This document shows, one piece after another, positions 5,860-22,700 of a DNA stretch of 37,897 nucleotides. This DNA comes from a virus. The DNA is taken from the IMG/VR virus record IMGVR_UViG_3300043427_001251, positions 1 to 37,897 of that record; one strand, 5' to 3'. Each line of letters opens with the position of its first letter. The stretch's first letter is position 1. Position numbers and translations under genes: made by a program. The notes under the pieces are model-generated. The model ran no database searches. It saw only the letters and a list, made by a program, of their open reading frames with translations, and was not told where the DNA came from.

Positions 5860-6867
5860 TTATTTAATCAAACCAGCTAACTTCTTAAATCTTTCAGCTA
5901 CTGCGTCACCTTCAGATAAAATCTTTTTAGGAGCTGCAGTTGACTTCATTGGTTTAGAAGCGAGTGATTCTTTAACAACTGTTTTCTTTTTTCTAGCGAC
6001 ATTTAAGTTTTCACCTAATGTAGCAAATACTAATTTTACTTCTCTCAAGTTTGAAGCTCTATCAAAGTTTTCAATTACTTTAACTTTTTGAGACTCGTTC
6101 AAATCAAAAGTTCTGAACAACTTGTTCGTGTAAAGAAGTTTTGCGTTAAGTAAGTTTACTTCGTTGATGGTTTTTCTCATAGACTGAATAGTCTTATAAG
6201 CTTCTTCCAATTCTTCTTTGTAACCTTCAGTAGCGTCTTCTTCTTCCTCGGTCATCTCTTCTTCGCCATTACCTTCCATTTCTTTCAAGGTACGGATGAT
6301 TTCGTTGATGTCAAGTTCTTCTTCATCTTCTTCAGATGTCATTTCATCTTCCATTTCATCTTCTTCAGATGTCATTTCATCTTCCATTTCATCTTCTTCA
6401 AATGCCATTTCTTCTTCATCGGAAGCCATTGCGTCTTCTAATTCTCTGATTACTGCTTCAAGGTCAAGGTCGTCCTCTTCGGTGTCTTCTTCTTCATCAC
6501 CGGTAAGTTCGTATTCTTCACCTTCTTCATCAGAGTCAGCAGCCATATCCATCTCTTCTTCAGCACCCATTTGGTCTTCTTCAGAATACATTTCATCCTC
6601 TTCTTCAGTCATATCTTCTTCAGCACCCATTTCAGCGTCAGCGGACATTTCATCCTCTTCTTCCATTGCAGGTACTTCAGCAGTCATCTCTTCCTCTTCT
6701 TCAGAAACTTCCTCATCGTCAAGTTCTTCTGCGAGTTTGTGAGACAACATAGACTGAATTCGTGGAGCAAATGCTTCTTCTAAAGCCAACTTAGCGTTAG
6801 CTAAAGCAGTTTCTTTTACGGCTTTTGCGTCAGCGATAGCTTCTTTGAGCAAATCTGATTTTGCCAT
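5860..6867 (-). CDS. Acidic prohead scaffold (core) protein, gp22-like
   Basis: A 335-residue protein directly before the capsid gene, the position of the T4 gene 22 scaffold. Residues about 45-215 are extremely Glu/Asp-rich, with Met-containing acidic repeats such as two copies of an 11-residue EMTSEED-type unit. The C-terminal third is a helical region (INEVNLLNAKLLYTNKLFR) followed by a basic tail ending FKKLAGLIK. The N-terminus MAKSDLLKEA contains an L-x-E/A site like gp21 cleavage sites. Scaffolds of this type fill the prohead, bind capsid subunits through a basic C-terminus and are destroyed by the prohead protease; that behaviour is inferred here. The ATG has an AGGAG ribosome site and a long leader with hairpins and two promoter-like boxes. 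Confidence 0.8.
   Translation of the reverse strand: MAKSDLLKEAIADAKAVKETALANAKLALEEAFAPRIQSMLSHKLAEELDDEEVSEEEEEMTAEVPAMEEEDEMSADAEMGAEEDMTEEEDEMYSEEDQMGAEEEMDMAADSDEEGEEYELTGDEEEDTEEDDLDLEAVIRELEDAMASDEEEMAFEEDEMEDEMTSEEDEMEDEMTSEEDEEELDINEIIRTLKEMEGNGEEEMTEEEEDATEGYKEELEEAYKTIQSMRKTINEVNLLNAKLLYTNKLFRTFDLNESQKVKVIENFDRASNLREVKLVFATLGENLNVARKKKTVVKESLASKPMKSTAAPKKILSEGDAVAERFKKLAGLIK
6325..6400 (-). repeat. 33-bp tandem repeat inside the scaffold gene
   Basis: Two copies of a 33-base unit (6325-6357 and 6358-6390) and a degenerate third start encode the 11-residue acidic unit in frame. Such repeats can expand or shrink and change scaffold length. Confidence 0.8.
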
Positions 6868-7461: not shown

Positions 7462-9072
7462 TTACATTCCCAATTTTGACTTGATTTTCATAAGTTCGGG
7501 CTTCAAAGTGTTTAAAGCTTCCTTGTCGTATCTTTTCAAATGTGCTTCAACTCCAAATGAAGGACTAAATACCATCTGCCAAACATTAGCAAACGGAGAC
7601 TTCAACATTTGATTACCATATCTTTGACCATAAGTAGAACCGGTAGCCCATCCTGCAATAGCACTTGCTAATTCTTTAGAAACTTTAATACCTTCAACTG
7701 ATGAGGTTGTTCCTTTAATTAAATCTTTTAAACCTCTAGCAAGTGTGATTTCATTTACCGATTCGGTTGATTCACTCAACTTAAAGAAGAAATACTTTCT
7801 CATATACTCTAATGACTTTAAGATATCTTGTAATTCTTTTTTACCTTTTGGTCCAAGTTCTTCATCTCTTAAATATGCATTTAGAACTGCGTATGCGCCA
7901 TTTACAAACTCATATGGAGTTTTAGCTTTTACAGTGTATCCACTCACATAACTAGCTTCATTTACTGATTCTAACTTCAAATTTCTTTGTGCATTAGTCA
8001 AACCACTAATGATAGATTTTAATCCACCTTTAACACCATCGGTATCTTTAGCTTGAACTCTCTTGTCCAAAATTTTGGTGTTCATCTTTAAGAAGTTGAT
8101 GATTGCGTTTTCAACTGCATTCCACTTAATTTCTTCTTCGTTTAATTTGCCTTCCATTATACCTACTGCAATATCACCAACCACAAAATCAGGTTTGGTT
8201 GCATATTTCTTATTTACAATAGCAACTTTGTTATTTGGAGTTGGTTGTATAATATAAATTGGTAATGGTTCGGTAGCGAAAGTATATTTCATACCTAATT
8301 TCTTTAACTCACTACCCACACTCATAAATGAAGATGCTGCTTCTACTGCCCCTTTAATTTTATCCATATCCGCCGGAGATACCGCTTCGTTTACTGATTC
8401 ATCTGCTTTTTTGCCAGCTCTTAAATCAGCCAAGTCATCAGCTTCAATGTCACCATCACTATCAACATCCAATTCTTTTTGACGACCAGTTAACTCTTCG
8501 TTTCTTTTGATTAAAGATGTTAACTTCATAGATTCATTAGCAAACTCTTCTGCGTTCTTCTTGTCTTCAGCGTCTACTCCAGTTACCTTGTATGACTTAC
8601 CATCAACTTCAAATGAATCTTCACCACCAGCAATTGCTTTAGCTCTTTCAGCACCAAACTCATTACCTTCTTTGATTTCGTAGTATTTACCAAGAACCTC
8701 ACCAATTTCATCGTAAGTAGATTCCAATCTTTGTTGAAGAGTAGACACCTCTTTTAAGGTGCTTGAGAATACCTTGAATGATTCGTTCATAGATTTCATA
8801 TGTCTCTGAACAGTTACTCTATCAAACCAATCACCAGTTTCTTTTAACGTAATGTTATTAGCACTTTCTACGATACCTTTGATAGAGTCGTGAATTTCAG
8901 CCAAATTACCTTTGTGTGAAATCATTTCACCTAATTGACGGTAAGCAGCAACAGCTTCAACGAACGCACGCTTTTCTTCTTTGGTCATACCCTGACCTTC
9001 TTCTTCACCAACATTCATTCTGCGGTAATCTAAATCTTGTGATTCTTTAAGAAGTTGTGATAATTTTTTCAT
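7462..9072 (-). CDS. Multi-domain head-core polyprotein with three ESVNE linkers
   Basis: A 536-residue protein in the gp22-like position after the protease. The N-terminus MKKLSQLLKESQD resembles a capsid-targeting peptide with an L-K-E/S cleavage site. ESVNE occurs at residues 225-229, 368-372 and 437-441, splitting the chain into pieces of 229, 143, 69 and 95 residues. The first piece is helical up to about residue 130. It then has a small FEVDGKSYKV beta unit after I-K-E/G (about 133-165), and a calcium-loop-like DVDSDGDIEADD at 202-213. Cleavage by the gp21-like protease into internal-head or core proteins is inferred from resemblance to the capsid V-S-E/A site. No enzyme motif was found. 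The ATG has an AAGGA site and lies 11 bases after the upstream gene. Confidence 0.75.
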   Translation of the reverse strand: MKKLSQLLKESQDLDYRRMNVGEEEGQGMTKEEKRAFVEAVAAYRQLGEMISHKGNLAEIHDSIKGIVESANNITLKETGDWFDRVTVQRHMKSMNESFKVFSSTLKEVSTLQQRLESTYDEIGEVLGKYYEIKEGNEFGAERAKAIAGGEDSFEVDGKSYKVTGVDAEDKKNAEEFANESMKLTSLIKRNEELTGRQKELDVDSDGDIEADDLADLRAGKKADESVNEAVSPADMDKIKGAVEAASSFMSVGSELKKLGMKYTFATEPLPIYIIQPTPNNKVAIVNKKYATKPDFVVGDIAVGIMEGKLNEEEIKWNAVENAIINFLKMNTKILDKRVQAKDTDGVKGGLKSIISGLTNAQRNLKLESVNEASYVSGYTVKAKTPYEFVNGAYAVLNAYLRDEELGPKGKKELQDILKSLEYMRKYFFFKLSESTESVNEITLARGLKDLIKGTTSSVEGIKVSKELASAIAGWATGSTYGQRYGNQMLKSPFANVWQMVFSPSFGVEAHLKRYDKEALNTLKPELMKIKSKLGM

Positions 9073-9677
9073 TTTAGTTGTCCTTATTTTTTACCTTCAA
9101 CAAGTTTTTCAATTTTTTCACCCATTGGTCTACCAACATTCATTGATACATAAAAACCAACTGCGTTTACGATGTCTTTACCATCCCATTTTGCAAGAGC
9201 AGCAATGGTCGGACCTAAATCGTATTCGTACATTTTCTCAAGGTCTTTCTCACCTTGTGGGTCACCTTCGTATTTTGCTTTTGAACCGAAGATAGCAGGA
9301 ACTTTCTTTGCATCTGAATGGAAGTTAGCATCGGTTAATGCACCCATCAAAATGTGCATAATAGCCCATAAGTGATTAGCTCCACCTTTTCTCATATCAC
9401 CAAGTTCGTATGATAACATCTTGTTAACTTTTACATTTAACTGGCGATTCATTTCATTCAATACACCCTCGTTCATACCACTACCATATTCGTGGTAGTT
9501 TGAAGCGGCTTGAGATACATAGTTTTCAGCATTAGTGATGTGGTCTTGAATCCAAGCAGGAACATCCTTTTCCATCTCACCCATTTTTTGCTTCAATTCA
9601 GTAGCGTATTTGATAATAGAGTCCAATGAATTTTGAGCCATTGAAACTTCGTGGTCTTGTGATTCGTTTACCGATTC
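7750..9677 (-). repeat. Dispersed 15-bp ESVNE repeat, copies in two head genes
   Basis: Plus-strand words of the form ttcRtttacYgattc occur at 7750-7764, 7957-7971, 8386-8400 and 9663-9677. On the minus strand each reads GAATCRGTAAAYGAA, in frame, coding for ESVNE. Only third codon positions vary. Further copies lie at 17399-18661. Confidence 0.9.
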
Positions 9678-9914
9678 ACCAAACATCTTAATCATTCTCT
9701 TTTGAACCGGATTTCCAGGAGTTCCAACAACTGCGGTTACAAAATTAAGTCTATCTGTTAACTTTGACTTTTTAACATATTGGTAAACCTTCTCAATATC
9801 CATATTGTGAGTATCAACAAACTTTTGGATTGCGTCTTTGTTTAAACCAGTCAAACCGCCAATTTCCATTGCGGTTCTACTAGCGTTTTCTTTTAGTAAT
9901 GACATCATTTTCAT
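9084..9914 (-). CDS. Head-core polyprotein with one ESVNE linker
   Basis: A 276-residue protein directly after the protease gene (ATGA overlap; GGAG ribosome site). The N-terminus MKMMSLLKEN resembles those of the neighbouring gene and protease product (LLKES, ILKES) and may be a capsid-targeting peptide. ESVNE at residues 80-84 separates an 84-residue helical part from a 192-residue part. The latter begins with a helix-rich segment (SMAQNSLDSIIKYATELKQK) that I recognise as recurrent in core proteins of uncultured T4-like phages, followed by a second, mixed domain. It is probably a prohead core or internal-head protein. The function of the C-terminal domain is unknown. Confidence 0.7.
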   Translation of the reverse strand: MKMMSLLKENASRTAMEIGGLTGLNKDAIQKFVDTHNMDIEKVYQYVKKSKLTDRLNFVTAVVGTPGNPVQKRMIKMFGESVNESQDHEVSMAQNSLDSIIKYATELKQKMGEMEKDVPAWIQDHITNAENYVSQAASNYHEYGSGMNEGVLNEMNRQLNVKVNKMLSYELGDMRKGGANHLWAIMHILMGALTDANFHSDAKKVPAIFGSKAKYEGDPQGEKDLEKMYEYDLGPTIAALAKWDGKDIVNAVGFYVSMNVGRPMGEKIEKLVEGKK

Positions 9915-10552
9915 TTTATATCTCCAAAATCACACTCACAATATCCACCCACTTCGCAGATGATTTCTCTCATAAGTGTATTAACCTTATTATAATTAGT
10001 TTGTTTTCTTTGAACTGACTCTTTGATAACCCCTTCATTTGTAGGTCTCATAAAAGCTCCATGCGTTGATGGGTTAGAAACAAAGTCCCAACAAATCAAC
10101 TCAAAGTCACCTTCAACAGCAACAGTTCCATCTTCTTTAATCTGACTCACGGAACCCATACCTCTTGATGAGATACCAACCGTACATTCTGCTTTGATTA
10201 ACTCTTGTAAGATTTTGCCAGCAGGTGTGTTTAAGATTTCAACAGCACCAACTACATCATCACCATTCCACCACACATCACGAACAACGTGCGATGTGTT
10301 TTTCAATTCAATTACCGATGATTCCGGATGGTCAAGTTCGCCATATGCTCGGTTTTCTTTGATTTCCCTACCCTTGTATTTTTCAACTTCTCTTTCAAGA
10401 ATGTTTCTTGGATATACTCTACCATTTTGGTTTTTAGCGTTTGCTCTCTGCAATACACCTGTAACCAAAAATCTTCCGTGGCGGTCTTGCGACTCCTTCA
10501 AGATTTGAGGTGTAATTTGGAATACAGTAGTATCAACTAATAATTGTTTCAT
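9911..10552 (-). CDS. 21: Prohead core protease, T4 gp21-like
   Basis: A 213-residue serine protease of the T4 gp21 / herpes assemblin-like fold. The likely catalytic His is in GELDHPESS (His75) and the Ser in VGISSRGMGS (Ser128/129); a conserved CWDFVSNPS segment follows at about 154-162. In T4 this enzyme assembles in the prohead, cuts itself, the scaffold, internal proteins and capsid protein after [L/I]-x-E, and is needed for head maturation. Its own chain has such sites near both ends (ILKE/S at 17-21, VIKE/S near 175-179), which fits self-processing. It overlaps its neighbours on both sides (TAATG upstream, ATGA downstream), so it is translated together with the proteins it probably cuts. 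Confidence 0.92.
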   Translation of the reverse strand: MKQLLVDTTVFQITPQILKESQDRHGRFLVTGVLQRANAKNQNGRVYPRNILEREVEKYKGREIKENRAYGELDHPESSVIELKNTSHVVRDVWWNGDDVVGAVEILNTPAGKILQELIKAECTVGISSRGMGSVSQIKEDGTVAVEGDFELICWDFVSNPSTHGAFMRPTNEGVIKESVQRKQTNYNKVNTLMREIICEVGGYCECDFGDIK

Positions 10553-10692
10553 TATTTTTCCCAGATTTGTTTTTTGCGGTAAAGGTCAAGAAATACTTTA
10601 GCTAATTCTTTACGAATCAACAATCTGATTTGAGAGATGTCATCCACCTCTAAAGCTTCATTAACTTGGTTCTTTTCACATCCGCAAGACAT
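10552..10692 (-). CDS. Small Cys-containing head protein, 46 residues
   Basis: An ATG at 10690-10692 opens 46 codons that end in a TAA overlapping the protease ATG (TAATG). The product begins MSCGCEKNQVNEALEV and ends YRKKQIWEK. It has a C-G-C pair and a single V-N-E/A site at residues 10-13, the same core as the ESVNE linkers. The rest is one amphipathic basic helix. The gene starts one base after the upstream stop. By position it matches the small core proteins encoded between gp20 and gp21 in T4 (gp67/gp68), but no sequence relation is claimed. Removal of the Cys-rich dozen residues by the protease is a plausible but untested idea. Confidence 0.7.
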   Translation of the reverse strand: MSCGCEKNQVNEALEVDDISQIRLLIRKELAKVFLDLYRKKQIWEK

Positions 10693-10693
10693 A

Positions 10694-11203
10694 TTACGAC
10701 CCCAGCTCTTTAATCTTACGAGAAATCTTTAACATTCTTTCGGAAATCTTACTAAATCTTACTTTTGTAGATTCCCAATACTGACCTTGACTCAATCCCA
10801 TTTCGGTTTTAAGTTTTGTATTCTGATTTACTAATTGTTCAACCTCATACAACTTACGATTGATTTCTTTGATAGCAAGATTCACTTTTTTCTTTGCAGA
10901 CATTGACTCATCTTTTCTATAAGCACGATAGGTTGCTTCAATCAAACTTTCTAATTTAGAATCTAATTGTGAAAGTGATTCAAAATGTTGATTTGATTTT
11001 TTTGATTTTTTGTATCCTAATACTTCAATGTGGTCATCATCCATATCATCCTCACTTTTAGCAAAAGCATATGGGGTTCTTGGGGGACCAGCACCACCAT
11101 CAAGGTTTGCGGTCACATTTGCTTCATCCAACTCATCTTCTTCTTGTTGAAGTTCAAGTTGATTGAATTTGTCTTCAAGTTCTTTTAGCAAGTATTTACT
11201 CAT
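10694..11203 (-). CDS. Head-module core protein with L-D-E/A site
   Basis: A 169-residue protein. The first 27 residues are acidic and helical and end in L-D-E, followed by ANVTANLDGGAGPPRTPYAF, a stretch I recognise as conserved among head proteins of uncultured T4-like phages. L25-D26-E27/A28 fits a gp21 cleavage site, giving a mature protein starting ANVT. The rest has an acidic linker and a basic helical C-terminal half that may form coiled coil. Its ATGA overlap with the gene upstream and place between portal and protease suggest a core or head-vertex role; the precise role is unknown. Confidence 0.65.
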   Translation of the reverse strand: MSKYLLKELEDKFNQLELQQEEDELDEANVTANLDGGAGPPRTPYAFAKSEDDMDDDHIEVLGYKKSKKSNQHFESLSQLDSKLESLIEATYRAYRKDESMSAKKKVNLAIKEINRKLYEVEQLVNQNTKLKTEMGLSQGQYWESTKVRFSKISERMLKISRKIKELGS

Positions 11204-12039
11204 TTTAGTTTCCTCACTTCTTGAAGCAATTCGTGGTATCTTAATAGAGAAAGAACCTGCGTTTCGCTGATTACCTTTGATGTTGCGATACTTTCCATCA
11301 AATTAACAGTTTCGTTTAACTTAATAGATAGAACCTTATCAGATACTTTTACTTTACCAAATGCGGTCTTTAATTTTTTAACTTCAGATATAACATACTT
11401 TCTTAATTTCTCTGAATTATCAATATTATTGATGTATGTTCTTAATACATTCTTTTGTTCCGAAGTTAAACTTGAATATTTTTCATTGAATGAATCAACC
11501 AAGAATTTGTAAGCCAATAAACGAACCTCTTTTGGTTGTGTTGTGTATTCTTCGTTGGTTTTTTGTTCTACCAATTGTTCTTTTTTGGTGATAATACTTT
11601 CAAAGATAGTATTCTTACAATCAACCCATTCTTTTGGAGAATTTTCTTGCTTATATTCAAATAACTTGTAGGTTGATGCTAATTCTTTGTAATTGTTTAC
11701 ACGATACTTAAAAAAGTCATCAATCTTATAAGATTCTTTGATAGATTTGATAAGATTATATTTTTGTCTACGAAGAATAGATTCGTTTAAACCTTTTCTC
11801 TGCTCTAAAATAATATTAACAAATTCTTGAGCTTTATATTGAGTATCAAATGTTTCTTTTTGAAGCGTCTGATAGAGATTTAACTCTTTGGTTAGTTCAG
11901 TCCCTTTTTTGAAATGGGATTTAATTATTTCAAGCGCCAGTGAGTTTTTGCCACCTAATGTATCAGCAGCAATTTGTCTCACGAGCAACTCAAATAAAAT
12001 ACCCGTATTTTTGAACTTACTGTGTTTTAACTTACCCAT
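11200..12039 (-). CDS. Conserved head-module protein next to portal
   Basis: A 279-residue, Lys-rich, almost entirely helical protein starting MGKLKHSKFKNTGILFELLVRQI. This N-terminal stretch is one I recognise as conserved beside the portal gene in distant T4-like phages, usually without function. No enzyme motif is visible. It sits where T4 encodes small prohead core proteins, so a role in core assembly or portal initiation is a reasonable guess. An AAAGG ribosome site precedes the ATG, and a doubled promoter-like box lies just upstream. It overlaps the following gene by ATGA. Confidence 0.65.
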   Translation of the reverse strand: MGKLKHSKFKNTGILFELLVRQIAADTLGGKNSLALEIIKSHFKKGTELTKELNLYQTLQKETFDTQYKAQEFVNIILEQRKGLNESILRRQKYNLIKSIKESYKIDDFFKYRVNNYKELASTYKLFEYKQENSPKEWVDCKNTIFESIITKKEQLVEQKTNEEYTTQPKEVRLLAYKFLVDSFNEKYSSLTSEQKNVLRTYINNIDNSEKLRKYVISEVKKLKTAFGKVKVSDKVLSIKLNETVNLMESIATSKVISETQVLSLLRYHELLQEVRKLK

Positions 12040-12063
12040 TTCAAACCTTTTATTTGACTTTCT

Positions 12064-12075
12064 AATAAATAAATA
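12064..12075 (-). promoter_or_regulatory. Doubled promoter-like box after portal
   Basis: On the minus strand TATTTATTTATT contains two overlapping TATTTATT words, the nearer ending 24 bases before the ATG at 12039. It matches the TAYTTATW series and lies in the 48-base gap between portal and the next gene. Confidence 0.45.
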
Positions 12076-12087
12076 TCGTATTGTAGG

Positions 12088-13947
12088 TTAAATCGTATCA
12101 TCTAACAATTGTGACTCATCCAACAACCCCAGCTCTTCAGTTTTAGACTCTGGTTTTAAGGATTCCATAATCATAGACTTGGTTTTAACCTTCATTTTTT
12201 TCAGAGAAGATTTTAATGCCGTTTGAGATTCAACCGCCATTGGCCCTTTTCTAAAATTATGATATGTACTGTCTCTACTAATGTCGGTTTGTTTACCAAG
12301 TGGGTCTCTACCCATATTTGCTTGGTCGGTTCCGTATGTTCCACTTTCAGTTGGTCTTCCAGCGCCAGGAAATCCACCTTCAGGAGAACCACCCTCTTCT
12401 TCAGCAGGTTGTTGTGCAATCACAGCAAGGTCGTGAGGTGTTCCAAACGATTCACCCGTTTTAGCTGGGTCGTTACCTTCGGTAGTAATTTGTTCGTGTC
12501 TGAACGATAACTTCAAGTCATCAATTACTTTTTGTTGTTCTTTTTCCCACTCATCATCAGACATATTAAAGATGTTTTTGTAAATCCACTCTTGTGAAAT
12601 CATCTTCAAATCCTTCATATTGCTTACAAGAGTTGTCTTTTCAGAAAGTAAAGCAATTTTCTCTTGTTCGTAAATAATAGATGGGTTTGTAAGCTCTAAC
12701 TCAAAATTAACGAGGTCTTCGTTTTCGTATCCTTGTGAGTAAAGGTGAACAATTGCAATTTTAGTAAGTTCTGATAGAACAATCTTTTGAACTCGTTCCA
12801 CAGTTCTTGCAAATCTGATGTCTTGTTGAGCAAGGGTAGCTTTACCTTCCACACCCTCTTCATATCCAATGAATGCTTTAGGAACTTTTAAAGCAGCCAT
12901 CATTCTATTCTTTAGGTATTCAATATCATCAATACCACCGAATTCCATACCACTCAAAGAATCAATTTCAGTTCCACTTTGACCACCACGAACCGGCAAG
13001 AAATAGTCTTCCAACATATTCATCATATTGAACTTGAGGTTGTAATCACCCGTGTTCTGGTCAATATATGGAACTTTTTTCATTCCATCAATAATGTTTC
13101 TCATATGTTGGTCAACCTCTTGTGGTGGGATATTACCAACATCAATTTTAAAGATTCTCTTTTCAGGCGCCCTCATAATTCTATGAATCATCATTGCGTC
13201 TTCCATAAGAGTTAATTGTTTCCAAGTTTTTCTAGCACCCTCTAACAAAGAACGACCATATGGTAGGAAGTTTGAGTCGGTCATTAATCTAAAGTGTGCA
13301 ATCTGATAAAATGGGAAGTATGTATTTTTATCTTTACCATATGAGAAATTGGTAGAAGAACTCATATTGGATAATTTAAATCTAACCTCATAAGGGTTAT
13401 CAGGATTAAATCCCTCTTCACGTTCAAATTCGTATGCTGAAATTGGTTGGACATTTACAATACCAACTCCCTCTTCAATATCTAAATACAAAAAGTAGTC
13501 ACCATATTTGTTCATACCACGAACCCAAGCCCAAAGGTTGAATTCAATATTTAAGATATCATAAAATAAGTTGTGAAGGATTTTTTTTAGATTCTCATCA
13601 GAAGATTTAATACGAATCACATCACCCATATCGTTCTTTAAGGTACACTCATCGGAGTAGATATCCAAAATAGAAGTAATGATTGAATCTTTGTCCATCG
13701 CCTCATAGTCAGTATACAATTCTAACTTGTTTGAGTGATAATTAAATTGTTGGTTGTAGGTTTCCCAATTCCTACGAGAAGTATGTAAACGACCAAATCT
13801 ATCGTAGTATGATGTTCCACGGATATTACCTTGAGATTGTAGTCTTTGTGAGTCTACGGCTTGTAAACGATTCTTCCCAACTCTTCTTACGATGACTTGG
13901 GTAGCGAATAGTTTTTGTAATCTTCCAAATAATGAATTGTCTGCCAT
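12088..13947 (-). CDS. 20: Portal protein, T4 gp20-like
   Basis: A 619-residue portal vertex protein; T4 gp20 is 524 residues. Recognisable gp20-family parts include the early YTDYEAMDKDSIITSILDIYSDE segment, MIHRIMRAPEKRIFKIDVGNIPP and MNMLEDYFLPVRGG in the middle, and the ALKVPKAFIGYE segment. The portal forms a dodecamer at one vertex, starts head assembly and is the docking site for the terminase and later the neck. The extra length is mostly a C-terminal tail after about residue 500, rich in Gly/Pro/Glu and ending with LLDESQLLDDTI. This tail contains MIME/S and LLDE/S sites that could be trimmed by the prohead protease. The ATG has a weak ribosome site. Confidence 0.93.
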   Translation of the reverse strand: MADNSLFGRLQKLFATQVIVRRVGKNRLQAVDSQRLQSQGNIRGTSYYDRFGRLHTSRRNWETYNQQFNYHSNKLELYTDYEAMDKDSIITSILDIYSDECTLKNDMGDVIRIKSSDENLKKILHNLFYDILNIEFNLWAWVRGMNKYGDYFLYLDIEEGVGIVNVQPISAYEFEREEGFNPDNPYEVRFKLSNMSSSTNFSYGKDKNTYFPFYQIAHFRLMTDSNFLPYGRSLLEGARKTWKQLTLMEDAMMIHRIMRAPEKRIFKIDVGNIPPQEVDQHMRNIIDGMKKVPYIDQNTGDYNLKFNMMNMLEDYFLPVRGGQSGTEIDSLSGMEFGGIDDIEYLKNRMMAALKVPKAFIGYEEGVEGKATLAQQDIRFARTVERVQKIVLSELTKIAIVHLYSQGYENEDLVNFELELTNPSIIYEQEKIALLSEKTTLVSNMKDLKMISQEWIYKNIFNMSDDEWEKEQQKVIDDLKLSFRHEQITTEGNDPAKTGESFGTPHDLAVIAQQPAEEEGGSPEGGFPGAGRPTESGTYGTDQANMGRDPLGKQTDISRDSTYHNFRKGPMAVESQTALKSSLKKMKVKTKSMIMESLKPESKTEELGLLDESQLLDDTI

Positions 13948-13985
13948 AATGTTTTTCTAAACTAAAAGAGTATACTTTTACAATC

Positions 13986-13993
13986 TATAAATA
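13986..13993 (-). promoter_or_regulatory. Putative late promoter box TATTTATA for portal
   Basis: Minus strand GTATATTTATAGA, 38 bases upstream of the portal ATG, in the 72-base gap after the terminase gene. It fits the TAYTTATW series. Confidence 0.5.
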
Positions 13994-14019
13994 TACAAAA
14001 AATAAACTACACTACCAAA

Positions 14020-15594
14020 TTAAAGTATCCAAGTCATATCTACATCATTACCTCTACCATCTTTTAATACCCAAGGATTATGTTGTCCCATTCTGGCGTT
14101 GTAAACACCACCTTGAGTCTTTGAAATGTGAGTTAATGCGGTACGGCTTAAATCTATACCCTGTTGTCTTAATTTTAATGCGGTGTCTCTTACCCAAAGT
14201 CCTGTGGAGAACGACATAACCAAGTCATCGTTATACCCTTGTTGAGCCTCCGCCTTGGAACCATTCCAAATGAATACAAACAGCTCATCAATTAAACGCT
14301 TTGAGTGAACGATTGGTGTTTTTTCTCTCATATAGGTATCAAGTTTAGAAATCACCAAAGGTCTTGTTCGTGAAGACATTGTAAAGCCCGGAACCATATC
14401 TTCTTTTTTCTTTAGGTCCCAACCTTTTCGTAGGTGGACATCATCATCTACATAACCCAACTCACGATATGAGTAATATAAGTTTGTATAGTTTCTATCA
14501 ATAACTTCTTGGATTACAGCCCAACCAATGTTTGCGTTTTCAACCACCAACATAGCATTGTTCCACTCCGCAGCAACCGATGTAAGGAATGCTCCATATT
14601 GTTTGGTTTCAATCTTACCTTTGTATTCAGCAACTTGTTCTACGGTTTCAATATCAATAACGTGAAATGCTGAATAGTCGGATGAATCGCCACGAGCCAC
14701 ATCGGCTACCACTACATAGTCACGAGAATAATTTGGATATTCCCACAACCAATAATTTCCATCAAATCCTCGTTTTTCAATTGGGTCTTTAATATAAGTT
14801 TCAGTATACCAAGTTAGAATTGATGAGTCTACTACCGTGTAACCCGAACTGATAAAGTCACAATCACATTCTTGTGCTGCGCCCTTTTCACCAAGTAATT
14901 TTGTTTGGTCATCTCTCCAACTTTGGTTTCGTTCAGGGTGAACGGTCCAGTGAAGTTTGATTGGATTCCAACTATCACCGGCCTCACCTTTTAACCAAAT
15001 TTTATGAAACCAGTTACCAACACCATTTGGAGTTGATAAGACAATAGCTTTACCACCGGTTGAAAGAGTTGATTGAGCAGAAGTCCAAATATCTTCAATG
15101 TTGGAAATAAACGCAGCCTCATCCATAATTAACATTGAAAGAGCTTCAGAACGACCCGCGTCACCTGCTGCTGATGTTGCTTTAATTTGAGAACCATTTC
15201 TCAATCGTAAAGAAAGTTTATTGTCTTCTTCGGTTTGGCCTCTTAACCAACTTGGTAGGTTTTCGTGCATAAACCTTACTTTAGTCACAAGGTTTTTTGC
15301 TACTTCTTGTTTGGTTGCAATTACCAAAATGTTTTTATCTTCGTGGAATAACATCATCCATAAAGAGTATCCGGCGGATAGAGTAGAAATACCTAACTGA
15401 CGTGATTTGAGGATTACATTAAACCTGTGGTCATCAAACTCCCTCATCAAATCTTCTTGGAAATCATAAAGATTGAAAAGAATTTTACCTCGGTGAGGGT
15501 GTTGGATATAACAATATTTCTTAAAGAAATACACTGGGTCTTTAGCACATTTAATGTACTCTTCCCTAATAAGTTCCTTTAAACTTTTTGCCAT
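14020..15594 (-). CDS. 17: Terminase large subunit, T4 gp17-like
   Basis: A 524-residue packaging motor ATPase-nuclease; T4 gp17 is 610 residues. The Walker A-like SRQLGIST is at residues 64-71, Walker B LIMDEA at 155-160, and the coupling motif VLSTPNG near 186-192. The C-terminal RNaseH-fold nuclease begins around residue 290 with VVVADVARGDSSDYS, followed by VVENANIGWA and a late NDDLVMS, which supply acidic metal ligands. It pumps DNA through the portal and cuts the concatemer. It is immediately followed by portal, whereas T4 has the tail sheath and tube genes in between. No small terminase (gp16) is recognisable upstream. The gene starts 10 bases after the preceding stop. Confidence 0.95.
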   Translation of the reverse strand: MAKSLKELIREEYIKCAKDPVYFFKKYCYIQHPHRGKILFNLYDFQEDLMREFDDHRFNVILKSRQLGISTLSAGYSLWMMLFHEDKNILVIATKQEVAKNLVTKVRFMHENLPSWLRGQTEEDNKLSLRLRNGSQIKATSAAGDAGRSEALSMLIMDEAAFISNIEDIWTSAQSTLSTGGKAIVLSTPNGVGNWFHKIWLKGEAGDSWNPIKLHWTVHPERNQSWRDDQTKLLGEKGAAQECDCDFISSGYTVVDSSILTWYTETYIKDPIEKRGFDGNYWLWEYPNYSRDYVVVADVARGDSSDYSAFHVIDIETVEQVAEYKGKIETKQYGAFLTSVAAEWNNAMLVVENANIGWAVIQEVIDRNYTNLYYSYRELGYVDDDVHLRKGWDLKKKEDMVPGFTMSSRTRPLVISKLDTYMREKTPIVHSKRLIDELFVFIWNGSKAEAQQGYNDDLVMSFSTGLWVRDTALKLRQQGIDLSRTALTHISKTQGGVYNARMGQHNPWVLKDGRGNDVDMTWIL

Positions 15595-15601
15595 ACATTT
15601 T

Positions 15602-15609
15602 TATTTATA
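15602..15609 (-). promoter_or_regulatory. Exact T4 late-box word TATAAATA before terminase
   Basis: Minus strand TATAAATA ends 7 bases before the terminase ATG and overlaps the upstream stop codon. With T4 spacing the transcript would start almost at the ATG, so it may be leaderless or chance. It is the only TATAAATA I noticed in this orientation beside a gene; the other gene-proximal boxes read TAYTTATW. Confidence 0.25.
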
Positions 15610-16012
15610 GAGCGAGCAATAATGTAACCGTAGCAGCTCCACCAGCAAAGCCAACCAAAAGACCTTGCCACATTTTAGAAGATTTTTCTCTTTTTAAAAC
15701 TTTGATTTGGTCTTCTTTTAGAGAAATTATTTTGTTTTTTTCTACAATAACCAAATCTTTTGAAGTAATAACTTTATTTAAGTTTTCAACTTCAACTTTA
15801 TACAAATCAATAGATTTTGAGTATAAAACAACCTTTTCTTGTGTTAATCGTAATTCATTAACACACAAGTCACGTTCTGCTTTTACCTTTAATGCGTTTT
15901 CAAGAGCCGCTCTCGGAACTGCAATTAAGTTAGATTCAGTTGAAAGCGTCTGTGAAAGCATCGGCAATGTCGTTATCAGACATAGCGTCAAGCTTAGCAA
16001 CATCTTTTTCAT
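15605..16012 (-). CDS. Exported coiled-coil protein with C-terminal membrane segment
   Basis: A 135-residue protein. The N-terminus MKKMLLSLTLCLITTLPMLSQ looks like a signal peptide; the Leu-rich core followed by SQ is a style common in Bacteroidota. Residues about 40-112 form a long coiled coil. The C-terminus has a Gly/Ala/Leu-rich membrane-like segment (GLLVGFAGGAATVTLLLAL). Its start lies inside the 3' end of the previous gene in another frame (77-base overlap), as in nested spanin pairs, and the partner also has membrane plus coiled coil. A spanin or envelope role in lysis is possible but unproven. The cysteine in the leader has no clear lipobox. Confidence 0.6.
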   Translation of the reverse strand: MKKMLLSLTLCLITTLPMLSQTLSTESNLIAVPRAALENALKVKAERDLCVNELRLTQEKVVLYSKSIDLYKVEVENLNKVITSKDLVIVEKNKIISLKEDQIKVLKREKSSKMWQGLLVGFAGGAATVTLLLAL

Positions 16013-16280
16013 ATTGTTTCCTTAACTTATTGATTTGAGCATCTTTTTTGCCAATTTGACCATCAATTCTTTTTAATTCTTTTTCAATATCTTTATTGAT
16101 TTTTAAAAGAGAATCTGATTGACTTTCTAACTTTTCAATCTGCGTGTTGTATTCTTGTTCACGCTCTTTCAACATTCTTTCGTAATCTTTTTTGTAACGA
16201 TTACCAGCAAAAAAGAATTGATATGCCAGTAAAGCTAATAAAGCAAGAATTACAAGTTGTTGAGTATTGAATCGTTTCAT
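15936..16280 (-). CDS. Membrane-anchored coiled-coil protein, i-spanin-like
   Basis: A 114-residue protein with a short basic start, a transmembrane helix at about residues 9-25 (LVILALLALLAYQFFFA) and then a charged coiled coil to near residue 98. This N-in membrane anchor with periplasmic coiled coil is the architecture of Rz-type inner-membrane spanins, which fuse the two membranes at lysis. The last quarter overlaps the start of the next gene out of frame, like Rz/Rz1 pairs. No sequence match to a known spanin is claimed; a structural or pore role remains possible. It follows the upstream stop directly (TAAATG). Confidence 0.55.
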   Translation of the reverse strand: MKRFNTQQLVILALLALLAYQFFFAGNRYKKDYERMLKEREQEYNTQIEKLESQSDSLLKINKDIEKELKRIDGQIGKKDAQINKLRKQYEKDVAKLDAMSDNDIADAFTDAFN

Positions 16281-16556
16281 TTATTTTTTGGCAGCCGGCT
16301 TTTTAGCAGTTGGTTCGGTTTTAGCAGCAGCTTTTTTCTTTGGGTAGTATCTTTTCTTTTTAGGAGCAGCTTTTTCTACTACATTAGCTACATCAGATGC
16401 TTCTTTTACTACTTTTTTAGCAGCAACTTTTACTTCTGCAACAGCAACCTTTACTTCGGCTACTTCTTTTTTAACTTCGGCAACGGTTTCTTTGATTTTT
16501 TCATCAATGGTAGTTTTACCAAGTAACCAATTCCAAACTTTCTTTAATGTTTCCAT
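16281..16556 (-). CDS. Small basic histone-H1-like protein
   Basis: A 91-residue protein in three parts. First comes a short amphipathic start (METLKKVWNWLLGKTT). Then a helix of heptad-like VAEVKxx repeats covers about residues 25-48. The tail from about residue 65 is rich in Lys, Ala and Pro (PKKKRYYPKKKAAAK...KKPAAKK). Such tails bind DNA or RNA non-specifically, as in histone H1 and bacterial HU-like tail proteins. It could be a packaged DNA-binding protein or a regulator. It has its own promoter-like box and precedes the membrane-protein pair. Confidence 0.6.
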   Translation of the reverse strand: METLKKVWNWLLGKTTIDEKIKETVAEVKKEVAEVKVAVAEVKVAAKKVVKEASDVANVVEKAAPKKKRYYPKKKAAAKTEPTAKKPAAKK

Positions 16557-16585
16557 AGTTTATTCCAATTTAATTTAAAACTACT

Positions 16586-16593
16586 AATAAGTA
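16586..16593 (-). promoter_or_regulatory. Putative late promoter box TACTTATT
   Basis: Minus strand CATACTTATTAG, 29 bases upstream of the ATG at 16556, in a 56-base gap. It belongs to the TAYTTATW series. Confidence 0.45.
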
Positions 16594-16612
16594 TGTAATT
16601 CAATGTTAATAA

Positions 16613-19156
16613 TTACCATTTACGACAAGACCAATATCTTGCTTTCCATCTTGGACCAGGGTTATCACAATTGTGTCTTGCTCTGAACGATGCTCTTGCT
16701 TTAGGATTGTCTTTACGAATTCTCATAGTTCCACCCTTAGCATCACCACCTTGTCCAAAGTTTACTTTAACAACATTACCTTTGTCGTTCTTAACATATA
16801 CTTTGAATTTCTTAACATCACCTTGCATAATCTTACCAAGTTTTACTTTTCTACCTTGATATTCTGCCTCGTTGATATCACTTTTGTATTCAGCCATAAA
16901 CTGAACAAACTCTTTTAGGTCTTGGTAATTTTCTACATCATACTCATCAACTACCTCTTCCTCTTCTTCTTTTAAAAAAGGTTTAGCTGCAAGATTGGAA
17001 TATACCTTACCTAATTCAGGAGTAAATCCGTATTTTTCTTCCATAAAGGTTTTTACATTATGGTATTCTTCTTTGATAATTTGCTTCAAAGAATCTTTGG
17101 TCAATTTTGATTCAGCAAGAGTTTCTTCTTTTTCTTCTTCAAGTTTGTGAACCGGATATTTTTTTCCGTTGAATTCAAATTCAGTCAAACCTTCTTTACG
17201 AGCTTTGAACAAAGCACCTGTGAAAGCATTACCCTCGTTTACATTATCTTGTGCTAATAACTTAACTTTATCAACCACGGTTTTAACTTTTTTACCATTA
17301 GCCAACTTTAAGGTCACACTTCTACCAAACCTATCAACAACAGTAGCAGCACTATTCGCTGGTGGGAACAATACGATATCACCAATTTCAACCGATGATT
17401 CGTTTACTGATTTTGATTCATACATTTGAAGGGCTTTAATGATGTTTGCCATCTTCATCAAATCCTTTTTGTAAACACCTTTACCAGTCTTTACATTCTT
17501 ACTAATAACACCCAAATGGTGCTGAAGATGTTTCATCATACCATCTACACGAGAATCATTAGGAATGGTAGCAAACTCATTTGGTAATTTTTCATCTAAT
17601 GATTCAACCGATTCGTTTGTGCTTCTATTATCATAAACACCTTTTAACCATTTAATAGTATCTCTATCTTTTGGAAAATCTTTGTATTCGTTGTAGAACT
17701 CTTTCACAAAATCTTTAAAATCTTTTGCTTCTTGTGCGATAATATCAATATTACTCATTGATGATTCGTTTACCGATTCTTTGATACCAGTTTTAGTGAT
17801 ATTAGATATCCAATTGTTTTTAATGAAGTAATCCATTCTCTCTTCAAAAGATGGGTTAGTCTTTTTAGACCACATATTGTATTCAACTTTTTTGTTGAAT
17901 TGTCTTTCATTTCTAACAATTGAGTTGATTATTCTGTTAGCCATAAACTCATTAGATAAGTCCGTCATTGGAAGTTTTTTCCAAGTTTTGTAATCTACAA
18001 GTTGAACAGTATCATCATCATTTTGGTATCCAAAGAAAAGTTTTCCTTTAGCATCAGAGAATATCTTTTTTCCGATTGCCTTAGCTTCGTTTACCGATTC
18101 ACCCATTACAATTTTACCTGTTGCATCCTCTATTCTGATTCTCGTATTAGGAAAATCTTTTAATAATGAAGAGTAGTTTGCAGGGATTGCTTGTGGAGTT
18201 TTAACTTCTACTTGTTTAATTACTTTGTTGTTCTTAATAACAACCAAAGTGAAAGGACCATCACCTTTTTTAACAGCTCTCATAATGTCTTGGAACAAAC
18301 CTTCTTTCAAAGTGTTTTCAGTAAGTCTTAATTCGTTTGGTGAGTATTTCATTACTTCACCATCTTGTCTTTTAACTGTATAATATTCCTCATCATCCGC
18401 ACCGTGTGGTTTATCCATCCCAACAACTTGACCAGTCATACCACTTTTAAGACAAGTGACATTATCACCAACTTGAAAATGAGATTCGTTTACTGATTCA
18501 CCTTCTAAAATTTTTCCATTTATTTTAATAACATAACCTTTAGGGTATTGTTTACCTTTAATAAAACTGTATGTTACTTTTTTACCTGGATTCTCTTTTT
18601 TTAATTTCTTTAGCATCATTTCTAGCTCTTCCATATCTACTTTTTCTTCGTTTACTGATTCTTTTTTTGATAAACGATTCTTTGCAAGAAGTGATATGAA
18701 CTTAATGTCAGCATCAATCAATTGTTGTAATTCCTGTTTTGATAATTTATCCAACATCTGAGCCACTCTAACATACATTGGGTCGGATGGATTGATTTTA
18801 TCAATGTCCTTATAAGCGTATTTTAAAATACCAAGGTGAGTTCTATCAAACTTCTCATCCATTTTTTCTTCTTCCGGACTTTTACCAAAAGTTTTGTGAA
18901 CTAACTTATCAAGTTGAGTATGAAATTCTTTTTCTTGAGAATCAGTAGCTTCGTTTTCACATTTCTTCCAACCACCACCAGCATCACCATATTGTTTTGA
19001 AGCCCACCCATTAGCATATGCTGATGGATATACATCAAACTTTTCTTTTGCTTGTGATTTATAATATGACCACTTTGATGGGTCGGTTGGGCAATTCTTT
19101 TCTTCTAGCTTTTGAACCGCTTCACCTAAACGAATGTAATACTCTTTACTTTTCAT
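16613..19156 (-). CDS. Long ESVNE-linked polyprotein of small domains
   Basis: With the ATG at 19154-19156 (GAGG ribosome site six bases upstream) the product is 847 residues; a GTG at 19168 would add four. ESVNE or close variants end at residues 170, 224, 357, 464, 515 (STNE), 586 (KSVNE) and 641 (DNVNE), and L-A-E/S and I-N-E/A sites follow. The predicted pieces are compact, mostly 50-135 residues. They include an N-terminal domain with YPSAYANGWASKQYG, two SH3/KOW-like beta barrels (near 225-285 and 587-635), helical bundles, a FEFNGKKYPV unit, and a C-terminal basic Cys domain ending in SFRARHNCDNPGP...ARYWSC. I recognise the first and last domains from uncultured phages, without known function. 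Cleavage by the gp21-like protease and packaging are inferred. Confidence 0.75.
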   Translation of the reverse strand: MKSKEYYIRLGEAVQKLEEKNCPTDPSKWSYYKSQAKEKFDVYPSAYANGWASKQYGDAGGGWKKCENEATDSQEKEFHTQLDKLVHKTFGKSPEEEKMDEKFDRTHLGILKYAYKDIDKINPSDPMYVRVAQMLDKLSKQELQQLIDADIKFISLLAKNRLSKKESVNEEKVDMEELEMMLKKLKKENPGKKVTYSFIKGKQYPKGYVIKINGKILEGESVNESHFQVGDNVTCLKSGMTGQVVGMDKPHGADDEEYYTVKRQDGEVMKYSPNELRLTENTLKEGLFQDIMRAVKKGDGPFTLVVIKNNKVIKQVEVKTPQAIPANYSSLLKDFPNTRIRIEDATGKIVMGESVNEAKAIGKKIFSDAKGKLFFGYQNDDDTVQLVDYKTWKKLPMTDLSNEFMANRIINSIVRNERQFNKKVEYNMWSKKTNPSFEERMDYFIKNNWISNITKTGIKESVNESSMSNIDIIAQEAKDFKDFVKEFYNEYKDFPKDRDTIKWLKGVYDNRSTNESVESLDEKLPNEFATIPNDSRVDGMMKHLQHHLGVISKNVKTGKGVYKKDLMKMANIIKALQMYESKSVNESSVEIGDIVLFPPANSAATVVDRFGRSVTLKLANGKKVKTVVDKVKLLAQDNVNEGNAFTGALFKARKEGLTEFEFNGKKYPVHKLEEEKEETLAESKLTKDSLKQIIKEEYHNVKTFMEEKYGFTPELGKVYSNLAAKPFLKEEEEEVVDEYDVENYQDLKEFVQFMAEYKSDINEAEYQGRKVKLGKIMQGDVKKFKVYVKNDKGNVVKVNFGQGGDAKGGTMRIRKDNPKARASFRARHNCDNPGPRWKARYWSCRKW
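17234..18661 (-). repeat. Dispersed 15-bp ESVNE repeat, second cluster
   Basis: In-frame copies of GAATCRGTAAACGAA (minus strand) lie at 17765-17779, 18086-18100, 18485-18499 and 18647-18661. Diverged copies lie at 17234-17248 (DNVNE), 17399-17413 (KSVNE) and 17612-17626 (RSTNE). Spacing is irregular and follows domain length. Confidence 0.9.
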
Positions 19157-19170
19157 ATAATACCTCACAA

Positions 19171-19791: not shown

Positions 19792-22700
19792 TCATTCTCC
19801 GTAGAACAATCCTAAAATTTGATTGAGTGGTGCGAATGTGCCTGTAAGTTTATAAGTATTACCTTTATACACAAATACGATACCCTCATTAGGAACAATT
19901 TTGTCTTTACCACCAATAGCGGCAAGTCGTTCTAATTCTAATTTTAGTTTTGCAATTTTCTTTGGGTCACCTGCTTTTTGAACGTCCTTAACTGTTTGGT
20001 CAAGTCGGTCTTTCATACTTCTAACAGCAGCATCAGGATTTGCAGTTAAAACTGAACTCATAAACGAAAGAACTTCGGCACCAACACCCAAGAAAATATC
20101 TTCAAATGGTCTAATATTATCTTTTTGAATTTTGGCGTGGTCGTTTTTATCTATACCTTGAGCCCAAGTCAACACTTTAGGGTCGGTGATGGTTTTACTG
20201 TCCAAACGGAACCCTTTATCGTAGAACGCCCATCTTTTAACAAGACCCATTTTAGTTTTGTTATCAAGTGTTGATGGTGATTTTGTATCTACAAAATTTT
20301 CCCACCACTTTTGGTGATATTCTGCAACACCATCAGTATCTTTCAAATTAAATTCTTTTTGAAGTTTATTCAACTGACCATCAAATTTTGATTTTAAAGA
20401 TGTAAGTTTTTGCGACTTTGGTAATTGGGTTACCGGCGGTCCTTGGATTGTGTATTTTGATTGAACATCAGCATTAACTTGTTTAATCATCCCAGCAAGA
20501 ACCTTTGCATCACTTTGGTCAGCACCAATAGCTATACCAGCTTCGTTGTATTCAGTCGTATTGTGGAATACCAAAAGGGCTTGACCATAAGGGATTACAT
20601 TGACCGATGTTGGCCAGATTACTTCAAGGTTCATAAACTTTGCACCTTGTTTGAAGATTTTGTCTCGTTGTGCTTTTGATAAACCTTTGATAGCTGATGT
20701 AAGGTCTTTCATTGCAAAGTTGTATGCGTCGGTCAAACCACCTCTACCACCAAACTTTGAAGCAATACCGCTAATGTCCAATGCCTTTTCACCACGATTA
20801 GCAAGGTGTCCTTTGTTTCTTGCTGCAATTAAACCCTTATCATCTCTCCACGAAATAGCAAGGGCTTGACCATCGGTCTTTTCTCTTGCAAGTTCTAATT
20901 CGCCCGTTAGGGCTCCGTTGATGATTTGTTTTAAGTCACCAAAAGTTAAATTCATTTCAGTATCAAATGGGTGAGCCATATGACCATACGCACCACCTTC
21001 AACCAATAAAGATTCTTTTAATACATTTTCGTTTGTATTGATAATATAATCTAATGTAGAGTCCTTACCCTTTAATCCCAACCAATATTTTGATTTTATA
21101 AATTGAGGATACAAACTTTTCATATTTGAAATAGCTTCAACTTCCCAAGGTAATTTGATATACTCCGAAGGACTTGACTTCATTAACTTATTATAGTCTT
21201 TTGCAGTTATGTATTCTTTACCCTTCCAAAGTATTGCGGTATAGTCTTTATTTGGTAATAATTCTTTTCTGGAAACTTGTTTGATATGAGTCAACTCGTG
21301 TATCATTGTTTGAATTATTCTCTGATATGACTGATTGGGATTAAAGTGTAAATAAAATTTATTTCCATCTACTGAATTTGAATTTAAGGATATATCACCT
21401 ATCAATCCAACTTTTTCTTTTTTCTTTACTATAATCTTTGCATTAAAATTATACTTATCCATCATAAATTCAATAACGGATTTAACCATCAAGGTTTCAT
21501 ATGGTTTCATTTTTAACGATGTTCCGAAAAGGTCTTCGTTTAATCCAATTTGTTTTTTATCAAGAAAATTTATAAACTCAACACCAACAGCGGTGGCTGT
21601 TTTTTCAATATCAGATTTCCAATCAGAGTAGTCTTTATTTGCAGGTCTATTACTTTTTGGATAGTAAGAAACTTGTGTTGGTCGGTCTTGAACAAATTGA
21701 GTTTCCAAGTCAGTTCCCAACATCCAATCAACTACTTCAAATCCCAATCGTTTTGCAATTTCGTTATTTGCAGATTGGTATTTTTCTTTACTTGCCCAAG
21801 AAAACGCAGGACCATTATCAACCATATCAAGTGAAATTGGTCCCATAGTAGAACCTTCGGTTTTGAGGTCTTGAACATCAACTTGTTTTCTACCCTGTTT
21901 AGCCGTTGTAAAGTCATCACTTACGGGTGGGATTTCCAAATCGGTATTATTACGGATATTTCGTTTGGATGAATATTGGTAGTAATCAGATGACCCCTTT
22001 GCATCAGGTGAAACAATCACATCAGCTACCGGAAAGTGCATTTGAACATAACCACCATTTACAAACCACACATCATCTTTTTGACCTGGATTTTTCATTC
22101 CAAGTTTGCGAGTTTTTCCTGGCAATACAAACATAGTGTCGGGTTCACCAGCATCTGCCCCATAAAGAGAGCCCTCTAAAAGAGATTCAACATCAAATGA
22201 TTTAAAGAACGATTCCATTACGGATTCAATCTTCATTAACCTTGTTGAAATTAAATTGTAAATCTTTGGGTCAAACTTTGGGTATGCTTTCTTGAATCCA
22301 GCTTTTCTTTGAGAATCATCTGATGCTGATAACCAATTACGAACATCAGTTCCGCTTATTGCGTTTGGTTGTGCCGGGGATACATACACATATCCGTTAT
22401 CAAGATATCCACTTTCGGGCTTACCATCGTATTTCTTAAAGTATTTACCACCCAAACGAGCCTCATCCTTTTCACCAACTACCGTGATAAATGCGGTGGT
22501 TTTAGAATCAAATTTATTTAAAACCTCACTTGGTTGGTATGGGTTTTTTACTTGGACAATTTGTGATGATGGGATGTTAAACATCTTCATCATAATTTCT
22601 CGTTTTTCTTTAAAATTAAATGGATGTCTTGGACCACCTTGTTGATTTGAGGTCCCAACAAAGACATTTTGCTTACCAAACTTTTTTACCAAATGTTCAT

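Follow-up and report, generated by a model that had tools for sequence, protein, structure and literature searches.

The virus record IMGVR_UViG_3300043427_001251 (37.9 kb; the whole stretch of 37,897 nucleotides (nt) analysed is called the window) belongs to a T4-like phage, and all genes studied lie on its minus strand. Three of the encoded proteins, of 847, 536 and 276 residues, are probably head-targeted polyproteins: small, mostly unrelated domains would be strung between sites of the form ψ-x-E/(A, S or G), usually ESVNE (the slash marks the putative cut), at which the prohead protease gp21 would free them as swappable internal head proteins. The proteins are modular, a common motif stands at their module boundaries, the linker DNA is conserved, one linker in a relative is a hybrid, and the genes are associated with head genes and gp21.

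ESVNE linkers in three proteins of the head-gene cluster

ESVNE was counted in 31 open reading frames (ORFs; 12,283 amino acids (aa)) chosen by hand from the ORF list of the window, all on the minus strand. It occurs eight times, against 0.022 expected from composition: four times in the 847-residue, three times in the 536-residue and once in the 276-residue protein, and in none of the other 28 ORFs. In a relative of 168 kb, with an 847-residue protein and a gp23 that are both 100% identical, 187 ORFs were called; they contain ESVNE eight times (0.06 expected), again exclusively in these three genes. The recurrence reported by the initial annotation is therefore real and restricted to three head-cluster proteins; the seven linkers which it gave for the 847-residue protein consist of four ESVNE plus STNE, KSVNE and DNVNE. 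All sites that it listed were found, while SDINE (759-763 of the 847-residue protein) and GKLNE (308-312 of the 536-residue protein) had been overlooked. All linkers and predicted pieces are given in Table 1. The ORF of the 847-residue protein (16613-19168) has an alternative GTG start four codons upstream (851 aa); the ATG start was used.

The three genes cluster with those for gp21 and the major capsid protein gp23, and the 536- and 276-residue proteins are encoded between gp21 and the gp22-like gene. A gp21 homolog, as expected for gp21 substrates, is thus encoded nearby; both this gene (Peptidase_S77) and the V-S-E/A at residues 58-61 of gp23 were present as initially described. The N-termini of the 536- and 276-residue proteins (MKKLSQLLKE/S and MKMMSLLKE/N) resemble ψ-x-E leaders of the capsid targeting sequence (CTS) type; for the N-terminus of the 847-residue protein (MKSKEYYIRLGEA) the resemblance is less clear. 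No Pfam family scored above its cut-off in the three proteins, and Pfam and PHROGs together gave almost no informative family: only PHROGs 7595 and 27331, both unnamed, passed 1e-3 for the 847-residue protein, and a DUF6493 match of the 276-residue protein (7.4e-4) was under the family cut-off.

Linkers coincide with module boundaries

Complete relatives of the 847-residue protein measure 622, 774 and 848 residues, and those of a more distant group 709, 772 and 825; the differences in length are entire modules, cut at linkers. Homologs of the 536-residue protein (819 aa in G003, 586 aa in G005) contain additional pieces that lie between linkers. Module 230-312 of the 536-residue protein has a homolog within the 847-type protein of locus L019, and a relative of module 465-515 of the 847-residue protein stands alone in four genomes (G012, G007, G008, G011), where it carries a short leader (MRLKSLITESKKVNE/SSMSEIDIM). 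Comparison of 93 non-redundant polyproteins from 82 loci, in pairs that are not independent, placed 32% of 1,246 homology-block starts and 40% of 1,359 block ends within 6 aa of a linker (random positions: 8%). Blocks most often start with the first linker residue, and most often end at the last E of the linker or one residue further. The linkers, initially described as lying between domains of very different sequence, are indeed module boundaries.

A scan with the bare linker 15-mer (see below) yielded at least 120 stretches. Among the matches listed, 53 of 116 new loci hold a string with at least two linkers (non-redundant set), and 42 of these 53 array loci also have a T4-like head gene within the fetched sequence. 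Gp079 of Flavobacterium phage immuto has both ESVNE and ESLNE. The arrangement of swappable small-domain strings is real, unusual and widespread. Weak or marginal matches in modules of relatives (CarD-like, RNase_J_C-like, Zeta-toxin-like) were not used to assign function; the string with the Zeta-toxin-like module (L175:7154-9388; Pfam E 6.8e-5, barely above cut-off) has two linkers.

The boundaries carry a protease-type motif

To avoid circularity, module bodies ending before the linker were used as queries, the sequence upstream of their matches was read, and these upstream contexts were clustered on P12-P6 only. Of 103 context clusters, 85 have [VILM]-x-E exactly at the boundary; the ratio is 56 of 62 when loci fetched by the 15-mer are left aside, and 32 of 34 for gp21-fetched loci and named phages only, against a background frequency of 2.2-2.6% per position. 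Among the 103 clusters, 92 have E at P1, 53 have N at P2, 86 have V, I, L or M at P3 (V 46, L 20, I 14; V is the commonest, as in window gp23) and 88 have G, A or S at P1'; nothing comparable to this conservation was seen over P12-P6.

The C-terminal module of the 847-residue protein has [VILM]-x-E in 20 of 21 clusters, always before A and with zero ESVNE, so that the conserved element at this boundary is a protease-type motif and not the 15-mer. In the exception K replaces E (RIVK/A, RLAK/A); it comprises L023 and L024, apparently another phage type, where the module is embedded in a larger protein. T4 gp21 cuts after L/I-x-E (PMC9026906). The boundary motif fits this specificity as well as the V-S-E/A of window gp23, and at the level of sequence the suggestion that ESVNE is a gp21-type site is supported by the position of ψ-x-E/small residue at the module boundaries.

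Phages with and without gp21

Nine named records that contain a relative of the C-terminal module and neither a Peptidase_S77 nor a window-gp21 match served as control. This control began with four records, to which other roseophage matches, CRP-2 and CRP-6 among them, were added later; gp21 searches of the added records matched nowhere, and identical queries matched in four phages elsewhere. The nine records include near-identical pairs, and ancestry is uncontrolled in this comparison. In four of the nine (Kolga, Aegir, CRP-901 and CRP-902) residue 2 of the protein already aligns with the first residue of the module (Kolga M-AKYQGRTVKL, window E/AEYQGRKVKL; Aegir equals Kolga over that region). 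Only the later part aligns in HTVC106P, CRP-738 and CRP-3, with an offset that leaves no space for a leader. In the gp21-bearing phages immuto, HTVC008M and C48C1 the module stands behind leaders ending in LDE/G, LEE/A and LTE/A, respectively. Gp21 was also not found in DSL-LC04, which carries another module.

Linker DNA is conserved and can recombine

The linker DNA is a near-fixed 15-mer, GAATCRGTAAACGAA. Codons were analysed for 67 ESVNE contexts, all in loci fetched by means other than the 15-mer. Exact GAATCAGTAAACGAA was present in 44 contexts; V is encoded by GTA in 66 (background 42%), N by AAC in 58 (39%) and S by TCA in 54 (41%). G002, G012, G005, G006 and G007 together have 29 sites that deviate from the 15-mer at no more than one position. 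Every one of these is read in frame within a called ORF, and 27 lie in the polyproteins. Loci L019 and L020 differ over 2,319 aligned nt by eight mismatches and one module of 159 nt. The single linker of L020 (GAATCGATAAACGAG) equals the left part of the left L019 linker (GAATCGATTAACGAA) joined to the right part of the right L019 linker (GAATCCGTAAACGAG), which is the pattern expected after recombination between linkers. Module differences of this kind were seen in 22 pairwise comparisons, several of which are one event counted twice. Judged from these sequences, the linker DNA is more conserved than codon need explains, and the linker is also a recombination joint; both the DNA conservation and this second role had been overlooked initially.

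Predicted structure

The AlphaFold2 model of the 847-residue protein (42 rows) has a mean predicted local distance difference test (pLDDT) score of 65.8 and a predicted template modelling (pTM) score of 0.32, and predicts several confident small domains in an arrangement that is not fixed. Seven of the eight linkers overlap stretches with pLDDT below 50, whereas random placement gives 2.7 (P 0.003). The model of the 536-residue protein is confident only near residues 140-180 and 230-310, best at 230-310, and the linker before 230-310 is not confident. Foldseek with the 847-residue model returned no match at E<=0.001. VIA-align placed Tudor/SH3-like chains on residues 223-294 with Z 7-8, a range called common; this region is predicted to be SH3/Tudor-like, nothing more specific.

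Related proteins reported in virions of other phages

The virion proteome of the cyanophage S-CREM2 contains gp160 with seven and gp137 with four unique peptides (PMC10665884 Table 3); its authors allow incomplete virion purification as a possibility (PMC10665884). S-CREM2 gp160 shares modules with SSM2_109 of S-SM2 (72% over 58 residues) and with the string encoded by L019 (31% across 144 residues; E 9e-9), and gp137 has S-SM2/S-BM3-type modules. The detection of gp160 lends indirect support to packaging of the window-type strings. A 1007-residue protein encoded next to the window strings has as its first domain a member of the broad cytidylyltransferase/NMNAT-like family. Proteins of this family are reported in virions of S-CREM2 (PMC10665884), S-SCSM1 and S-SZBM1; the S-CREM2 cytidylyltransferase gave no direct match to the 1007-residue protein.

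S-CREM2 gp160 (L277:22443-23336) and gp23 have GFTGAAAPxGPxAGxDPxM in common, which in gp23 directly follows the presumed cut LTE/A and is perhaps a shell-binding motif.

Neighbouring genes

The 1007-residue protein is also modular; its metallopeptidase-like and ligase-like modules are named by the motifs HELTH and KTDG, and its metallopeptidase Pfam matches are below cut-off. Its homolog in G012 has one additional small module inserted. Counted as distinct, unclustered contexts with upstream sequence, the boundary is ψ-x-E in 22 of 22 for the ligase-like module (one further row without upstream sequence), five of five for the metallopeptidase-like module and five of six for the YGAD module (one row without upstream sequence). 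One of the five metallopeptidase-like contexts belongs to a stand-alone gene, with a ten-residue leader (MIKLKDILSE/DLFGTSL).

The V-N-E/A core initially seen in the 46-residue protein is present as Q-V-N-E/A. The fetched loci encode 33 distinct relatives of this protein, with leaders of varying length, most of which end in a hydrophobic residue, any residue and E before a conserved helix. Upstream of gp21, a protein of 169 residues (10694-11203, minus strand), possibly a gp67-like core protein, shares the block E/ANVT(G/A)N(L/M)DGGAGP behind an acidic leader with about 20 relatives. Two short ORFs of 135 and 114 residues (15605-16280, minus strand) overlap by 77 nt in different frames.

Table 1. 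Coordinates of the putative polyproteins, their linkers and neighbouring genes in the window.
Feature	Position	Strand	Remarks
847-residue putative polyprotein	16613-19156	-	nine predicted pieces: 1-170, 171-224, 225-357, 358-464, 465-515, 516-586, 587-641, 642-763, 764-847
Linker ESVNE 166-170, 847-residue protein	18647-18661	-	pLDDT<50 at 167-172
Linker ESVNE 220-224, 847-residue protein	18485-18499	-	pLDDT<50 at 219-225
Linker ESVNE 353-357, 847-residue protein	18086-18100	-	pLDDT<50 at 357-362, meets last linker residue only
Linker ESVNE 460-464, 847-residue protein	17765-17779	-	pLDDT<50 at 448-462
Linker STNE 512-515, 847-residue protein	17612-17623	-	pLDDT<50 at 513-533
Linker KSVNE 582-586, 847-residue protein	17399-17413	-	pLDDT<50 at 579-608
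Linker DNVNE 637-641, 847-residue protein	17234-17248	-	pLDDT<50 at 613-638
Linker SDINE 759-763, 847-residue protein	16868-16882	-	before basic C-terminal module 764-847; [VILM]-x-E/A boundary in 20/21 context clusters; outside low-pLDDT stretches
536-residue putative polyprotein	7462-9072	-	five predicted pieces: 1-229, 230-312, 313-372, 373-441, 442-536
Linker ESVNE 225-229, 536-residue protein	8386-8400	-	pLDDT<50 at 218-229, model poor overall
Linker GKLNE 308-312, 536-residue protein	8137-8151	-	pLDDT<50 at 307-387, poor model
Linker ESVNE 368-372, 536-residue protein	7957-7971	-	pLDDT<50 at 307-387, poor model
Linker ESVNE 437-441, 536-residue protein	7750-7764	-	pLDDT<50 at 426-449, poor model
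276-residue protein	9084-9914	-	two predicted pieces: 1-84, 85-276
Linker ESVNE 80-84, 276-residue protein	9663-9677	-	
46-residue protein	10552-10692	-	leader ends Q-V-N-E ahead of ALEVDD
gp21 prohead protease, presumed cutter	9911-10552	-	Pfam Peptidase_S77, E 5.6e-31
gp23 major capsid protein	4180-5829	-	Pfam Gp23, E 5e-77
V-S-E (58-60) then A61 in gp23, presumed capsid maturation site	5650-5658	-	context QLV-S-E/A
gp22-like acidic protein	5860-6867	-	named by gene order against annotated phages
gp20	12088-13947	-	named by gene order against annotated phages
gp17	14020-15594	-	named by gene order against annotated phages
1007-residue modular protein	19792-22815	-	NMNAT/cytidylyltransferase-like (Pfam), YGAD, metallopeptidase-like and ligase-like modules joined at ψ-x-E boundaries

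Discussion

Cleavage and its alternatives

Several observations weigh against cutting of the linkers by gp21. Co-variation of linker and capsid site, which the initial annotation had put forward as a check, was examined in two locus sets and no strict co-variation was found: linker P3 does not follow capsid P3, and ESVNE arrays occur with V-x-E as well as L-x-E capsids. In the gp21-fetched set, where the capsid site was readable in 44 of 80 loci and the other 36 were dropped, ESVNE was found 37 times in 17 loci with V capsids and four times in 27 with I capsids; the low count in I-x-E-capsid phages may be ancestry alone. In the 15-mer-fetched set a gp23 site was found in 17 of 116 loci among the matches listed (nine V, eight L); the four loci with at least two ESVNE (non-redundant set) all have LDE/A capsids, and V loci score zero ESVNE where their string was dropped as redundant. 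At P3, the gp21 of the window clade may tolerate V, L and I. If so, capsid P3 is no test of linker cutting, and the mixed P3 at the boundaries agrees with this. Further, 18 of the 103 context clusters are without the exact motif, and the module fold could include some of the boundary residues. Of the gp21-less phages, CRP-2 has an extension of about 16 residues before the domain with a boundary without ψ-x-E, and CRP-6 has an extension with L-E-E about three residues off the boundary. The initially suggested check for linker disorder gave low-confidence stretches at seven of eight linkers in the 847-residue model; SDINE is outside such stretches, and the 536-residue model, with a mean pLDDT of 51.5, is poor. 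The codon bias could be due to recent spread instead of function, and some pieces may be core fillers. Overall, the polyprotein reading is partly supported: module boundaries, gp21-type motif and clustering with gp21 and gp23 speak for it, whereas capsid co-variation does not.

The alternative that retains most weight, though we consider it unlikely, accepts cutting by gp21 but takes the pieces for scaffold-core fillers that leave the head, like fragments of T4 gp22, gp67 and gp68, and not for injected cargo. The genes of the 536- and 276-residue proteins, flanked by gp21 and the gp22-like gene, agree with it, as do several acidic pieces (1-229 of the 536-residue protein has a charge of -16) and the cutting of T4 core proteins by gp21 into multiple fragments (PMC9026906). 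However, the pieces differ widely and some are very basic (764-847 of the 847-residue protein, charge +17), the 847-residue model has confident small domains, the neighbouring 1007-residue string has enzyme-like modules, and proteins with related modules as well as cytidylyltransferases are reported in purified virions of other phages. It is clearly less probable that the linker serves recombination alone, as a spreading 15-bp joint that reshuffles the domains of uncut proteins. The extreme conservation of the linker DNA and the hybrid linker of L020 would be explained in this way, but [VILM]-x-E is kept without ESVNE at the C-terminal module (20 of 21 clusters) and the ligase-like module (22 of 22 contexts), and the near-15-mer sites of the five relatives are all in frame and nearly confined to polyproteins. 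Least probable of all is an uncut, repeated docking or packaging motif such as a scaffold-binding peptide. The enrichment of E at P5 (44 of the 103 clusters) and of S at P4 (40) would agree with it, but outside the ESVNE lineages conservation shrinks to P3, P1 and P1' (C-terminal module), and in most gp21-less phages the same domain begins directly at Met or beside it, at the place of the putative cut.

For the head-targeted polyproteins that we favour, we infer that they enter the prohead core together with gp22 and gp21, that gp21 cuts every linker during head maturation, and that the freed pieces would remain with the DNA and be at least partly injected, like T4 internal proteins. The initial annotation's proposal that one gene supplies its pieces in fixed ratio could then apply. 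Modules would be lost, gained and moved by recombination at the linker 15-mer. The chances appear evenly balanced for a wider cassette system, in which the 15-bp linker is prohead-protease site and recombination joint in one, small injected effector domains are traded as links of several polyprotein genes, and maturation frees each accepted link.

Comparison with known systems

The window strings resemble the T4 internal proteins (IPI, IPII, IPIII and Alt, with CTS and gp21 cutting at L/I-x-E), which are small, diverse, partly basic head proteins with a leader ending in ψ-x-E and diverse bodies behind a conserved targeting peptide (PMC3012670, PMC9026906). These sources describe them as separate proteins, in contrast to the window-type strings with up to 9-10 pieces per reading frame, repeated linkers and modules that move between genes. 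Polyvalent proteins (Iyer et al. 2017, PMC5512222) likewise have several domains per polypeptide, their families including ART, kinase, MPTase and DdrB-like; they are encoded near virion genes, are supposed to be packaged, and proteolytic release has been proposed. There, embedded metallopeptidases are proposed for autoproteolysis, whereas the motif of the window strings fits a separate prohead protease, and the window linkers are short, repeated and exchangeable (PMC5512222). By analogy, the window strings may work like CTS-bearing T4 internal proteins multiplied within one gene, and may resemble polyvalent proteins with an external protease.

Hypothetical proteins of the T4-GC_119 type in cyanophages (S-SM2 SSM2_109, S-BM3) are also strings of related small modules, beside gp16/gp17; unlike the window proteins, the two examined are without ESVNE and their linkers are more diverse. 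In phiKZ, processing comparable to that of SPN3US takes place after S-x-E. In SPN3US, whose gp21-like protease cuts after A-x-E, packaged ejection proteins are matured after Glu as proposed here; of the 14 sites mapped, 13 serve to remove N-terminal propeptides and one is at the C-terminus of the protease itself, and the available part of this source describes no strings of swappable modules (PMC10052503). A search of open-licence literature found no description of such linker-joined strings, and none of the listed papers with ESVNE as text has a phage title.

The stocking of a T4-like head with host-takeover proteins, and the evolution of this stock, are known for a few coliphage internal proteins. 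If our reading is true, cargo is delivered as strings with a readable cut code, and sequence alone would suffice to catalogue the pieces in aquatic phages with unannotated small proteins; the reading predicts exact N-termini for mass spectrometry. One short sequence would join protein maturation and gene shuffling, and one gene could load several different cargo proteins and be restocked by swaps of single links.

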